Below, in pieces: positions 12,235 to 36,428 of a DNA stretch of 64,000 nucleotides (position 1 is its first letter; every line of letters starts with the position of its first letter). A program made the translations under genes and the position numbers. Source of the DNA: Nitrospira sp. MA-1. GTDB lineage: Bacteria > Nitrospirota > Nitrospiria > Nitrospirales > UBA8639. The notes below the pieces were generated by a model. The model had not been told where the DNA came from, made no database searches, and saw only the letters and a list, made by a program, of their open reading frames with translations. Location: assembly GCA_032139905.1 (NCBI GenBank), contig JAQJDB010000007.1:1240001-1304000 (forward strand), given 5' to 3'.

Positions 12235-12403
12235 GTTTTCGTGATCACTCAGGAACTCAAAACTCTGTGACGGCAGTTGTTGAATATTTCAAATATGTTG
12301 TTTTTTTCAATGGGCATATGAATGACAGAAACCAACCTGAGGACAATGAGGGAGTCTTAAAGAGGCGTGTCCATCAACGCTCCTGTCAGTGTTGTTCAAT
12401 ATG

Positions 12404-12637
12404 GGAGTGTTGAATAATTATATTTTCCAATGGCATATTCATCCGCAGGAACGTTGCAAATTAGAGGCCTCGGGGCGGTTCAAAAAAGCATGTCCTGAGA
12501 TTTTCGAAGGGTTCGTCCAGTCCTGCCCTGAGTCATGCCGAAGGGAAGGCCGCAGTCATTTTTGCGCGCAGAGCGTACTTCCAGTACGTGAGCACGGAAA
12601 AATGGCGAGAACGCCGCTGGCGGCTTTTTTCAACAGC
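12404..12637 (+). repeat. 234-bp dispersed repeat, copy A (inverted partner at 16076-16309)
   Basis: This stretch matches the reverse complement of 16076-16309 over exactly the same length. The last 136 bases (12502-12637) are identical between copies; the first 15 bases also match, while the part between has diverged. It contains small dyads: a CGTACT/AGTACG pair around 12576 and the GCCG/CGGC hairpin followed by six T at 12613-12630. The CCTGAG...TTCGAAGGG block resembles extragenic repeat motifs I recall from many environmental genomes. It lies in the 414-bp non-coding interval between two convergent genes. Short open frames running through it are not counted as genes. Confidence 0.92.
12613..12630 (+). 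terminator. Terminator-like hairpin at the end of repeat copy A
   Basis: A GCCG-CTGG-CGGC hairpin is directly followed by six T. The stem is short (4 bp), so strength is uncertain. On the + strand it is the first such signal after the LPS operon ends at 12234. Confidence 0.45.
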
Positions 12638-12648
12638 TCCAAATGCCC

Positions 12649-13710
12649 TTACGGGAAGGCGGGTAAGGGTGCATAGATGAGGGGATGGCCAACCAATTCC
12701 TCCAGCCATTGTTCCGTGGCTTGATGAGAAAGAGGTCGTTGATTGAGTCGAATCTCCAGACGAAAGTCACCATTCGTGCCCACCAGACCCACGATGGCTG
12801 CGACGTCCTCACCTTCAGGAAGGAGATAGTCGGTCTGGAATTCCGCCAGGCTGCCATAGACCCGACCTTGCGGCTCCAAGAGCTGAAGCAACTCAGGCAT
12901 ATCGGACAGCGTGCAGTGAATAGAACATCGATACATGAACCGGGGATTGGGTGTGATTCCAGTGAAATCCAAGAGGGCAGGTTCGGGAAATCCTGTGAGA
13001 TAGACGCGCAAATTGGCAGGTTGCCCCTGATAGGTCGCAGCCAGTTGACTGGCTGGAACCAAAAATTCAAAAGGATCGGGCGAGTTGAGTTCAAATTGGC
13101 AGGGTCCAAACGCATCCGGCCATGAGCAAAAGAGCGGTGTATCGGTTCGGTCTGTCTGCAGCAGGACTCGTGCGCCTTTTTGCGTCACCTCAATCGGAAG
13201 ATCCAAGATCTGAATGGCAGTCCGAAAGGCACTTTCCCGGTCCGTGAGCCAAAATCTGTCTCGTGGTTTGGCAAGTATTTCGCCTGGTGTAATGACGTCG
13301 GTGGTATGAACCCGGACACGAATGAATCCATGAGTATGTCGGAATCCGAGCCAAAGCCAGGCTTCAGGAAGGAGTGTTGTCAGCGGCTGAGTCATACGCC
13401 AGGGATGCGCGATCGAGCAGTAGGTGTTGACCGATTGATGCGTTTGGAATATGGAGTGATAGTGGCCTGCCAAGAGAAAAAAGTCGCCCTGCCAGTTGTC
13501 GAGGAGATGTAATAAGGTGACATCCTCGGTGGGCCATGGCGCGAGCGTTTGGATGTGCTGTGGATGGCCCACCTCCCATTCTTCGATATAGCCGATCATC
13601 TCCTTGTCCTCATGGATGGAGGTTAGGCCTAACTGCCTCAATTTGCTCGCCACCAATAAAATATCCTCGAAGGAGAGCGTCGATTGGGTTTCCCAACGAT
13701 GTTCACGCAT
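12649..13710 (-). CDS. Hypothetical protein, 353 aa, no recognised family
   Basis: I do not recognise this protein. It has no signal peptide, no clear membrane segment and no known nucleotide-binding or metal motif. The composition is that of a soluble, tryptophan- and leucine-rich protein: repeated short blocks such as LLHLLDNWQGDFFLLAGHY, EAWLWLGFRHTHGF and the C-terminal TEQWLEELVGHPLIYAPLP. Paired His/Trp-rich segments between residues 80 and 140 are the most distinctive. The frame is long and uninterrupted with codon use like its neighbours, so it is very likely a real gene. It lies downstream of tRNA-Ser on the same strand (131 bp) and inside the inverted repeat pair. Confidence 0.75.
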   Translation of the reverse strand: MREHRWETQSTLSFEDILLVASKLRQLGLTSIHEDKEMIGYIEEWEVGHPQHIQTLAPWPTEDVTLLHLLDNWQGDFFLLAGHYHSIFQTHQSVNTYCSIAHPWRMTQPLTTLLPEAWLWLGFRHTHGFIRVRVHTTDVITPGEILAKPRDRFWLTDRESAFRTAIQILDLPIEVTQKGARVLLQTDRTDTPLFCSWPDAFGPCQFELNSPDPFEFLVPASQLAATYQGQPANLRVYLTGFPEPALLDFTGITPNPRFMYRCSIHCTLSDMPELLQLLEPQGRVYGSLAEFQTDYLLPEGEDVAAIVGLVGTNGDFRLEIRLNQRPLSHQATEQWLEELVGHPLIYAPLPAFP

Positions 13711-13841
13711 GGGTTATATTCAGCAAAGCGAAATGCGGGGCAGGTGGATCATTCGGTTCCAACGATATCGGATAGAGATGGCCGGAGGAAGGGGTGAAGG
13801 TTAAGGAACGAAGGCAGATCTGGAAAATTTGACGAAAAATA

Positions 13842-13932
13842 TGGCGGAGAGGGCGGGATTTGAACCCGCGGTAGGCTTTTGACCTACGACGGTTTAGCAA
13901 ACCGTTGCCTTCGGCCACTCGGCCACCTCTCC
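13842..13932 (-). tRNA. tRNA-Ser (anticodon GCU)
   Basis: A 91-nt class II tRNA read on the minus strand. The acceptor arms are GGAGAGG (13926-13932) and CCTCTCC (13846-13852), followed by discriminator G and an encoded CCA (13842-13844). The anticodon loop is in a GGTTTGCTAAACC stem-loop with GCT at 13896-13898. The long variable arm (about 17 nt) is that of a serine tRNA. The T loop GGGTTCAAATCCC is intact. Confidence 0.97.
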
Positions 13933-13962
13933 GCGCAAGTGTATGTCAATTGATTGTGACTA

Positions 13963-13992
13963 CTTATAGAGTAACAGCATGGGTAACTTCAA
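13963..13992 (-). promoter_or_regulatory. Candidate sigma-70 promoter of tRNA-Ser
   Basis: Read on the minus strand: TTGAAG, an 18-nt spacer, then TATAAG, ending about 30 nt before the tRNA 5' end. The hexamers match 4-5 of 6 consensus positions each. No experiment is implied. Confidence 0.45.
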
Positions 13993-14580
13993 GAGCAGAT
14001 TGCATCAGGATTGCGGTTGAACCGCTTGTTGGAAAATCCAATCCCCAAACCATGTGCCGACGATTCCCCATAAATATATATCCCTATCCATCAGATTGGT
14101 GATCCTACCATGCCCAAACGGTTCTTGGATATATTTTCCACAAGCTTTTTGTAGGATGATATAAGGCGCAGAGATAGGAAGTCGGGTCGCGGATTTTCCG
14201 AAATAAACCATTGGTCAATGGAATGAATTGGGGACTTATGTGATGACGCCGGGACAGGAGCATCGCGTGGTCTTAGCCAATCAAGTGGGGGCACGGTCAT
14301 GGCGGATGCCATCAAGTTTCAAGCCGCCGGGTCGCCCACGCTGAATGGGCCGACCCTATCATTTCTAAAACAATGCGATTTCAAAACTTCCCTCCTAGGT
14401 GCACAGTTCAGCATTGGGTGGTTTGAAATCTCAGCCAGATTTCTCGTATTTGAATCGAAAACGGCTATCTTACCGGAGTATTTTCTCCTTTTTATTTCCC
14501 AGCAACTGAAGCTAGTGAAGCTTAGAGAATTGTGGTTTTTTGCGAGTGCGGCGCTATCAAGCCGCATAGAGCGCGGGTAA
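13993..14580 (+). other. Gene-free interval, nothing recognised
   Basis: About 590 bp between the tRNA promoter and the small gene ending at 14581. Open frames here (for example + 14299-14580 and - 14319-14639) are short, overlap on opposite strands, lack ribosome-binding sites and have low-complexity or unlikely protein composition. I see no repeat copy, no RNA signature and no clear terminator. Confidence 0.5.
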
Positions 14581-14910
14581 TTATGTGGAAGCCAATTTGG
14601 CCAACTCAGTATCGACGAATGCGAGGATTTTTTCAGCATCCTCGACCAGGCCGTCCGTGATGTTGAGGCCTAGAGCGAGATCTTCCTCATCCAAGGTATC
14701 GGCCAATCCGTTATTTTGTAATAAGCTGACATCCCAAAATAATATTCCGGCAGTGGCCGGTTTCCCCTCGATGGAGGCGACCAGGTTAATATTATCGCCA
14801 TGCTCGGTTGGAGTGCTCACAAACGTCGGCTCAGCATTCTGTTGCTTCGCTTGCCGGATAAGCTCCATGAATATTTTCAATCTTTGTAGGCTGGAAGGGT
14901 CTGTCCCCAT
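14581..14910 (-). CDS. Small acidic hypothetical protein, 109 aa
   Basis: I do not recognise the family. The product is soluble and acidic, without a signal peptide or membrane segment. A good ribosome-binding site (GAGGGAAAG) stands just before ATG 14910. The N-terminal part is helical (SSLQRLKIFMELIRQAK), the middle looks like a beta-rich core containing NINLVASIEGKPATAGILFWDV, and the C-terminus is an acidic helix. A second small gene with similar codon use lies about 100 bp upstream on the same strand. Confidence 0.65.
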   Translation of the reverse strand: MGTDPSSLQRLKIFMELIRQAKQQNAEPTFVSTPTEHGDNINLVASIEGKPATAGILFWDVSLLQNNGLADTLDEEDLALGLNITDGLVEDAEKILAFVDTELAKLAST

Positions 14911-15014
14911 AAATGTCTTTCCCTCTCATGAGAAGTTTGAACTGGTTCACCTGCAATTGGGAGTCCTGCGAGGTAATCGTTGAAGGTATAGAGCCTGTGG
15001 GCCAATATTTGGAT

Positions 15015-15230
15015 TTATGCGGTTCCTTGATGGCCTGAGGTAGAAGGATCCTGCTGGTCTCGTTTCCGGGCTCGAGAGGCGATGTTTTCCATGAGCCCCG
15101 TGAGTTTTTGATATTGGGGATGGTCGGGAGAGAGTGGTTTGCCATCTTCATCGCACAACAGGTCTTGCATCCCTTCGAGCATGGCGGCCATTTCCGGAAA
15201 AATTTCGTCATCAGAATTTTTTCGTCCCAT
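15015..15230 (-). CDS. Small acidic hypothetical protein, 71 aa
   Basis: I do not recognise the family. An AAAGGAAAG tract precedes ATG 15230 at good spacing, which supports expression. The sequence is hydrophilic: a helical first half with methionines (EMAAMLEGMQDLLCDEDG), then a proline-rich turn (PLSPDHPQYQKL) and a basic-acidic tail. It lies between dsbA-like and the 109-aa gene, all on the minus strand, and may share their transcript. Confidence 0.58.
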   Translation of the reverse strand: MGRKNSDDEIFPEMAAMLEGMQDLLCDEDGKPLSPDHPQYQKLTGLMENIASRARKRDQQDPSTSGHQGTA

Positions 15231-15284
15231 GGTGTCTTTCCTTTGCTATTGATTCGAGTCTGATTGATAAGCTCATGCTATACA

Positions 15285-15920
15285 TTAAGATTTGCTATCT
15301 TGCTTAAGAATGCTTTCGATCACCGTCTTCAGGTTTTCGGCAGTTAAGTTTGCCACACGAATGTTTCCATCCAAAAGTACGGTTGGCGTATGCGTGACCT
15401 TGATCCGTTCTCCCCAGGTCCGGCCTTTGGCTAAGGTTTTGAAAGGCTTTCCACTGGCGAGTCCTGTTTCAAATTCTGTGGGATCGAGCCCGATTTCTTT
15501 CAGAAGGAGTGAGCGCATGGTCTTATCGAAGACTTGAATGTCTTTGTCGTGAATGGCCTGAAAGAGGAGTTCTTTCATTTCAGGACCTTTGCCCATAGTC
15601 ACGGCCTGATTGTACATCTCAAAGGCCGTCGGCAGTTTGCCGGGTATGACGGGAAATCCCACCATTCTAATCTCTAACTGGTCGCCAAATTCTTTTTTCA
15701 GTTGGGTCCCGACAACCCGTTCGAACATGTGGCAATGGGAGCAGTAAAAGTCAGCGAATTCAAACAGAATGACCTTGCCGGCTTCATGCTGAGAAGGTTC
15801 CCCCTCCATCAGTTCGTATTCGCCCTGTATCGTGCTCAAGGCCACATTTGCCCATCCCATCAGGCTAAACAGGAGTATTCCTCCAATAATTCGGGCAATT
15901 TGTGTCTGTCCTGATTTCAT
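15285..15920 (-). CDS. DsbA-family thiol:disulfide oxidoreductase, exported
   Basis: A periplasmic thioredoxin-fold protein that probably forms or isomerises disulfide bonds. From ATG 15920 the product is 211 aa; an AAAGGA site lies 7 nt upstream, which favours this start over the in-frame codon at 15995. Residues 1-29 are a signal peptide (hydrophobic IIGGILLFSLMGWANVA). The redox site is C60-S-H-C63 in FADFYCSHCHMF, and the cis-proline region is THTPTVLLDG near residue 185. Helical insertion between these matches DsbA rather than TrxA. Several small cysteine-containing exported proteins in this window (23044, 24777) are possible substrates, an inference. Confidence 0.87.
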   Translation of the reverse strand: MKSGQTQIARIIGGILLFSLMGWANVALSTIQGEYELMEGEPSQHEAGKVILFEFADFYCSHCHMFERVVGTQLKKEFGDQLEIRMVGFPVIPGKLPTAFEMYNQAVTMGKGPEMKELLFQAIHDKDIQVFDKTMRSLLLKEIGLDPTEFETGLASGKPFKTLAKGRTWGERIKVTHTPTVLLDGNIRVANLTAENLKTVIESILKQDSKS

Positions 15921-16075
15921 GTTTGATCCTTTCTTGATTTCGCTTCTATTCCTGAAATTTTTCTCTCGAATCGCCGGGGCGTGTTCGGGTAACATGCTAC
16001 GTTTCTGGAGGCACTCTTACTTTAGCCCATCATATCAGACTGAACCTAGGGTCATTCAAGGTTTCTGGAAAATGG

Positions 16076-16309
16076 GCTGTTGAAAAAAGCCGCCAGCGGC
16101 GTTCTCGCCATTTTTCCGTGCTCACGTACTGGAAGTACGCTCTGCGCGCAAAAATGACTGCGGCCTTCCCTTCGGCATGACTCAGGGCAGGACTGGACGA
16201 ACCCTTCGAAAGGCTCAGGGCATGATTTTTTGAACTGCCCCGAGGCCTCTGATAGGCAACGTGCCTGTGGGTCAATAGGTCCTGGGAAAATAGTATTATT
16301 CAACACTCC
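16076..16309 (-). repeat. 234-bp dispersed repeat, copy B (inverted partner of 12404-12637)
   Basis: Reverse complement of copy A with equal length; bases 16076-16211 are identical to 12637-12502. It fills much of the 515-bp gene-free interval (15921-16435) between the divergent dsbA-like and cupin genes. The open frame at 16052-16411 on the minus strand reads through the repeat and is judged a by-product. The terminator-like end points toward the dsbA-like gene. Confidence 0.92.
16083..16100 (-). terminator. Terminator-like hairpin at the end of repeat copy B
   Basis: Same GCCG-CTGG-CGGC hairpin plus six T as in copy A, read on the minus strand. It would stop transcripts entering the dsbA-like gene from upstream. 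Short stem; strength uncertain. Confidence 0.42.
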
Positions 16310-16435
16310 TGGAAAATGAAATCGCCTCGTGGAGATCCGGGGTGGTGAGGGATTGGTCGGCGTAAGAGATTTTTGAGGATTATTCAGAGAGGGTCTAGTT
16401 GGTATCGACATTGTTCAATTGAGGAGGGCATTGAC

Positions 16436-36215: not shown

Positions 36216-36300
36216 GAATGCGATTTTAAATAATTCCTTTTTACATCGGCATTTGAGTGGATGAAAAGAAAGCAAGAAAAATGCTGCGGTATTCAAAAAT

Positions 36301-36383
36301 GTTCGTCATGTCCTGCCCTGAGTATTGCTGAAGGGGAGGCCGCCTATTTTTTGACGGGGGGAGCGGAAGAGTAGGCGAGAACG
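36301..36383 (+). repeat. Degenerate partial copy C of the dispersed repeat
   Basis: The stretch aligns to bases around 12511-12611 of copy A: GTTCGTC..GTCCTGCCCTGAGT, then GAAGGG.AGGCCGC and a final GGCGAGAACG, with many substitutions and a missing inner part. It is in the intergenic region between two minus-strand genes. It shows the family is dispersed in the genome and not limited to the 12.4-16.3 kb segment. Confidence 0.68.
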
Positions 36384-36428
36384 ATCAATGGGTGGGAACG
36401 CAGGTCGGGCCATGTTTCAACTCCTCAA

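Follow-up and report, generated by a model that had tools for sequence, protein, structure and literature searches.

The window analysed here, a 64,000-bp stretch of the 4.76-Mb genome of Nitrospira sp. MA-1 (C7:1240001-1304000), contains two inverted repeats that bracket a 3.4-kb segment, one half of each repeat being identical and the other diverged. This raises the question of whether the repeats are recombination sites, partners in gene conversion or copies of a mobile element. The earlier note had described them as reverse complements of equal length sharing 136 consecutive bases, and this is accurate: the arms (12404-12637 and 16076-16309) are identical at 216 of 234 positions, all 18 mismatches are confined to positions 12419-12501, and the remainder (12502-12637 against 16211-16076) matches at 136 of 136 bases. 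The probability that such identity arose by chance is negligible. We are confident that the arms arose independently, as insertions of a MITE, a non-autonomous transposable element of 190-238 bp. Its dispersal, its outer repeats, the 5-bp duplications and empty sites, its nesting and the covariation of its hairpin are direct evidence of this. The inverted arrangement of the two copies in the window is a matter of chance.

Structure of the element

The true ends of the element, set by its terminal inverted repeats and target duplications, lie a few bases beyond the arms, and both copies belong to the longest, 238-bp class (Table 1). The outer terminal inverted repeats of the family read GGG(A/G)NTGTTGAA(A/T)AA; the ends are GGG(G/T)CTGTTGAAAAAAG on one side and GGGAGTGTTGAATAAT on the other (in short form, GGGGCTGTTGAAAAAA / GGGAGTGTTGAATAAT). 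The layout is asymmetric, with a tail of about 70 bp and an imperfect hairpin of about 110 bp that extends to one end. Inward from the GGGAGTGTTGAATAAT end, the tail is followed by the inner repeat GGGGCGGTTCAAAAAAG, by optional REP-like units and by the hairpin, which reaches the GGG(G/T)CTGTTGAAAAAAG end. The length classes of 190, 214 and 238 bp correspond to (i) none, (ii) one and (iii) two embedded 24-bp REP-like units. No transposase gene is present in the element (190-238 bp), and the only open reading frames that overlap it are short and cross its ends. The search for a family-wide end motif, which the earlier note had proposed, was successful: the motif GGGNNTGTTSAAWAA of the outer repeats gave 170 matches (with at most one mismatch) versus 23 for the reversed control, and the ends are paired. 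A third, decayed relative in the window (36220-36424) contains one REP-like unit.

Table 1. Coordinates of the element copies, their parts and their flanks in the window.
Feature	Position	Strand	Remarks
Remnant of older element, same superfamily (GGGAGTCTTAAAGAGG ... GTTGTTCAATAT)	12320-12402	+	Intact, about 120 bp, in G010 and G017
Left target duplication AATAT	12398-12402		Right partner AAAT (12641-12644) decayed by one base
Left MITE copy, full 238 bp	12403-12640	+	Terminal inverted repeat GGGAGTGTTGAATAAT / GGAGCTGTTGAAAAAA
Left copy, fast-evolving tail with one outer terminal inverted repeat	12403-12471	+	9/76 mismatches to own-genome consensus vs 0/92 in core
Left copy, inner inverted repeat GGGGCGGTTCAAAAAAG, other base of hairpin	12472-12488	+	
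Left copy, two embedded REP-like units (CCTGAGATTTTCGAAGG, CCCTGAGTCATGCCGAAGGG)	12489-12545	+	Missing from 190-bp class; 24-bp length steps
Left copy, conserved hairpin core	12525-12634	+	Covariance model R1, 66.2 bits, E 8.9e-15; compensatory changes
Direct repeat CTGGAAAATG, inner flank of right copy	16065-16074		Includes target duplication GGAAAA
Right MITE copy, full 238 bp	16073-16310	-	Empty vs filled sites in relatives
Right copy, conserved hairpin core	16079-16188	-	Covariance model R1, 66.2 bits
Direct repeat CTGGAAAATG, outer flank of right copy	16309-16318		Single copy in empty site of G003
Decayed third relative, ends approximate	36220-36424	+	75% over 65 nt; below R1 model threshold

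Distribution of the family

The two arms are part of a short, gene-less element scattered through this genome and related nitrite-oxidiser-type (Nitrospirales) genomes. As judged by BLAST and covariance-model searches, the host genome carries about 50 family copies: 43 places were found with the left arm as BLAST query, four of which are at least 92% identical along the full length, and 51 with the covariance model. The pair is thus not alone in the genome, a point that the earlier note had wished to see settled by genome-wide counts. The covariance model of the conserved core detected the hairpin in 57 of 59 genomes of the order (per-genome counts of 64 are to be read as at least 64). An exact core pattern was found in at least 120 stretches of a GTDB-wide collection and, among the matches listed, 78 of 80 bear Nitrospirota titles. 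The Nitrospirales repeat is also present in the two exceptions (L081 and L089), contigs titled Bacteroidia and Marine bacterium B5-7, which are probably misbinned; L089 matches the NPIRA06 contig L080 in length and match position. The plasmids and phages searched gave no match to the repeat, and in the Rfam search the tRNA alone was matched.

Target site duplications

Exact 5-bp flanking matches were found in 9 of the 16 copies of the host genome, whereas 20,000 shuffles gave a mean of 0.56 and a maximum of 5; the agreement falls when the match is slid or lengthened beyond 5 bp. Among all fetched loci, pairs of ends lying 150-300 bp apart were bordered by exact 5-bp duplications in 69 of 138 cases, although these loci were chosen by the core pattern and are related to each other, and the 69 are therefore no random sample. 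No such duplication was detected for pairs of ends at least 600 bp apart (0/114) or 100-150 bp apart (0/118), the latter being mostly combinations of an inner with an outer repeat. It is therefore the outer repeats, and not the ends of the hairpin, that bound the mobile unit. The target duplications sought at the suggestion of the earlier note, together with the dispersed copies and the empty sites, bear out the mobile event that it had considered. Most likely, a putative DDE-type transposase (its family likewise presumed) acting in trans would cut at the outer repeats, and insertion would duplicate 5 bp of the target.

The left insertion site

The left copy is nested in an older member of its superfamily, within the decayed right end. 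In G018 its orthologue is a 190-bp version without REP units, situated between exact AATAT duplications. The copy is absent from five other relatives (G010, G017, G016, G004 and G015), where another element of that superfamily, mostly a shorter one, occupies the site.

The left copy (region 12403-12649) ends no more than about 9 bp from the stop codon of the gene encoding the 353-aa protein, between convergent genes, and same-genus relatives retain some hairpin element of the superfamily at this position. A hairpin element beside this gene could act as a terminator or 3' stabiliser. Conservation of the 353-aa protein itself (12649-13710, minus strand), which has no Pfam match, extends to 45 of the 59 genomes of the order.

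The right insertion site

At the right site (region 16065-16318; the loci of relatives include L181, L182 and L264) the target is uninterrupted in G003, G016 and G015, and filled in the window and in G018, G010 and G004, the last three carrying, at one and the same insertion point, elements whose internal make-up is different in each. Two observations made here count against the MITE reading: (i) the direct repeat is 6-10 bp long, as opposed to the 5 bp usual for the family, and (ii) the site is filled in the distant G018, G010 and G004, yet empty in G003, which at this locus is the nearest relative, with about 92% identity. The latter distribution requires either precise excision or repeated insertion at one point. 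A single old insertion with later precise losses is favoured over repeat insertion, because the 6-bp duplication GGAAAA fits all filled sites.

Conservation of the hairpin core

The conserved core suspected in the earlier note proved to be a property of the whole family. In 19 copies of the host genome the divergence from the consensus is 3.6% for the core versus 9.4% for the tail (Wilcoxon p 1e-4), and family-wide the tail evolves 2.6 times faster than the hairpin core. The hairpin is maintained across the order by compensatory changes: on 28 diverse copies 90.4% of the cells are paired and 16 pairs show two-sided changes, a result reached by none of 500 shuffles, although counts of this kind are inflated by the relatedness of the copies. 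Sliding the hairpin partner by 1-3 columns lowers pairing to 37-48%. The middle helix of this model was added by hand after reading the subfamilies, and the copy of L131 in the 28-sequence alignment has one surplus A in an A-run, which does not materially affect the counted helices. Single-strand folding of one copy alone was unremarkable (z of -1.7 and -1.1), so the case for the hairpin is carried by covariation only. Given this slower evolution of the core in the family as a whole, the conserved half is probably constrained, either as a transposition substrate or as a stable hairpin, or homogenised between copies.

Alternative explanations

The third possibility raised in the earlier note, beside the mobile event and the conserved core, was gene conversion. 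Local conversion between the two window copies might have created their 136-bp identity: the pair is extreme within the family, with 0 of 184 mismatches to the consensus in the core versus 17 of 152 in the tail (p 8e-7), and both copies belong to the 238-bp type and have the same core, even though the modules of their orthologues vary in relatives (the left one lacks REP units in G018, and the right one has a 30-bp module in G018 and G010). However, unlinked copies (L003, L007 and L018) have cores identical to both window copies at 92 of 92 positions. The identity is thus not private to the pair and, given the slow core of the entire family, no special exchange within the pair is needed; moreover, the right copy may have inserted independently and more recently, since the close relative G003 is empty. 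We therefore consider such a local event rather unlikely while keeping gene conversion as a live alternative to the preferred cause, hairpin constraint. A broader picture is possible, if still doubtful, in which the order-wide Nitrospirales hairpin family has its cores kept identical by gene conversion or selection, tails and 24-bp modules turn over at fixed sites, and copies come and go at one position, by repeated gain or precise loss.

Two other readings fare far worse. Inverted identity of 136 bp is long enough for RecA-dependent recombination, and the earlier note had envisaged inversion of the segment with the 353-aa protein, tRNA-Ser and the DsbA-like gene. However, the opposite orientation that it had proposed to look for in relatives was absent from all three compared: the segment, like the sequence on either side of it, is collinear with the window in the single-contig genomes of G018 and G010 and on one contig of G016 (elsewhere the region lies only partly on one contig), with unchanged orientation of the heptosyltransferase, the 353-aa gene, tRNA-Ser, DsbA and cupin. 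In addition, each copy still has its own flanking duplication in place, whereas inversion would have swapped them, no recombinase adjoins the pair, and G016 has the same gene order without either 238-bp copy. Inversion is therefore not supported, and that the pair serves to flip the 3.4-kb segment is extremely improbable. Hardly more credible is the view that the repeats are of the REP/BIME kind and owe their spread to a RAYT (Y1 transposase). REP-like palindromes do occur in the 214- and 238-bp versions, and Y1 transposases in most same-genus relatives, but the REP units are optional, the 190-bp class without them still having outer repeats and 5-bp duplications. Y1 transposition is not expected to produce target duplications, and the sole Y1 match of the host genome (5.8e-4) is broken by three stops and falls below the cut-off.

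Search for an autonomous partner

An autonomous IS with the same ends is usual for a MITE, although not strictly defining, and the partner may be lost. In 20 genomes, none of the DDE_Tnp_1, IS1380-type and Tn3 transposase loci contained an IS with the MITE ends; the listed places of G010 and G016 likewise yielded no autonomous element among their paired end motifs, and no end-motif pair 600-5000 bp apart had a 5-bp duplication. The IS4-like element of the host genome, present in two near-identical copies with a 436-aa transposase (G000:C2:130014 and C4:100444), has ends (CCCATAGCTGTTAAGCTAAG) unrelated to those of the MITE, and a 711-bp candidate consists of two neighbouring MITE copies. A 1.4-kb candidate in G010 turned out to be an IS110-family element inserted into a MITE copy (L248:520-1960; G010:C1 about 1893520-1894951), with a 333-aa transposase (PF01548 and PF02371) lying within the REP-like part. 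The choice of REP-like targets is known for REP-directed IS110 elements. ISPpu9 of Pseudomonas putida is likewise reported to sit in REPs (PMC8450116).

Relation to known repeats and significance

Imperfect palindromes dispersed between genes are typical of ERIC/NEMIS-type repeats, which, by description only, the Nitrospira family resembles in its intergenic imperfect palindromic core of about 125 bp; unlike in those repeats, hairpin and tail together form the mobile unit here. REP-like palindromes inside the 214- and 238-bp versions recall REP/BIME/REPIN systems with RAYT (PMC3116915, PMC2817692), but here the REPs are optional cargo and not the mobile unit. In the features tested, the element fits the structural definition of a bacterial MITE (PMC10969869). 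With Chunjie (178-235 bp), Correia and QMITE2 (PMC10969869) it shares (i) small size, (ii) lack of coding capacity, (iii) terminal inverted repeats, (iv) short target duplications, (v) dispersed intergenic copies, (vi) variable length and (vii) strong secondary structure. In contrast to those MITEs, the Nitrospira family has its own ends, an order-specific sequence, an asymmetric tail plus hairpin and embedded REP-like units. No description of this MITE family in Nitrospira was found in the open-access literature searched; the family does not seem to have been described, while the feature itself is ordinary.

The family accounts for a type of dispersed repeat that is common in Nitrospirales genomes and cautions against taking such inverted pairs for phase-variable switches. 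The covariance model and the exact end rules can be used for its annotation, and the presence or absence of copies can serve as strain markers. The hairpin core, with its order-wide compensatory changes, offers a case in which constraint on a non-autonomous element can be tested.
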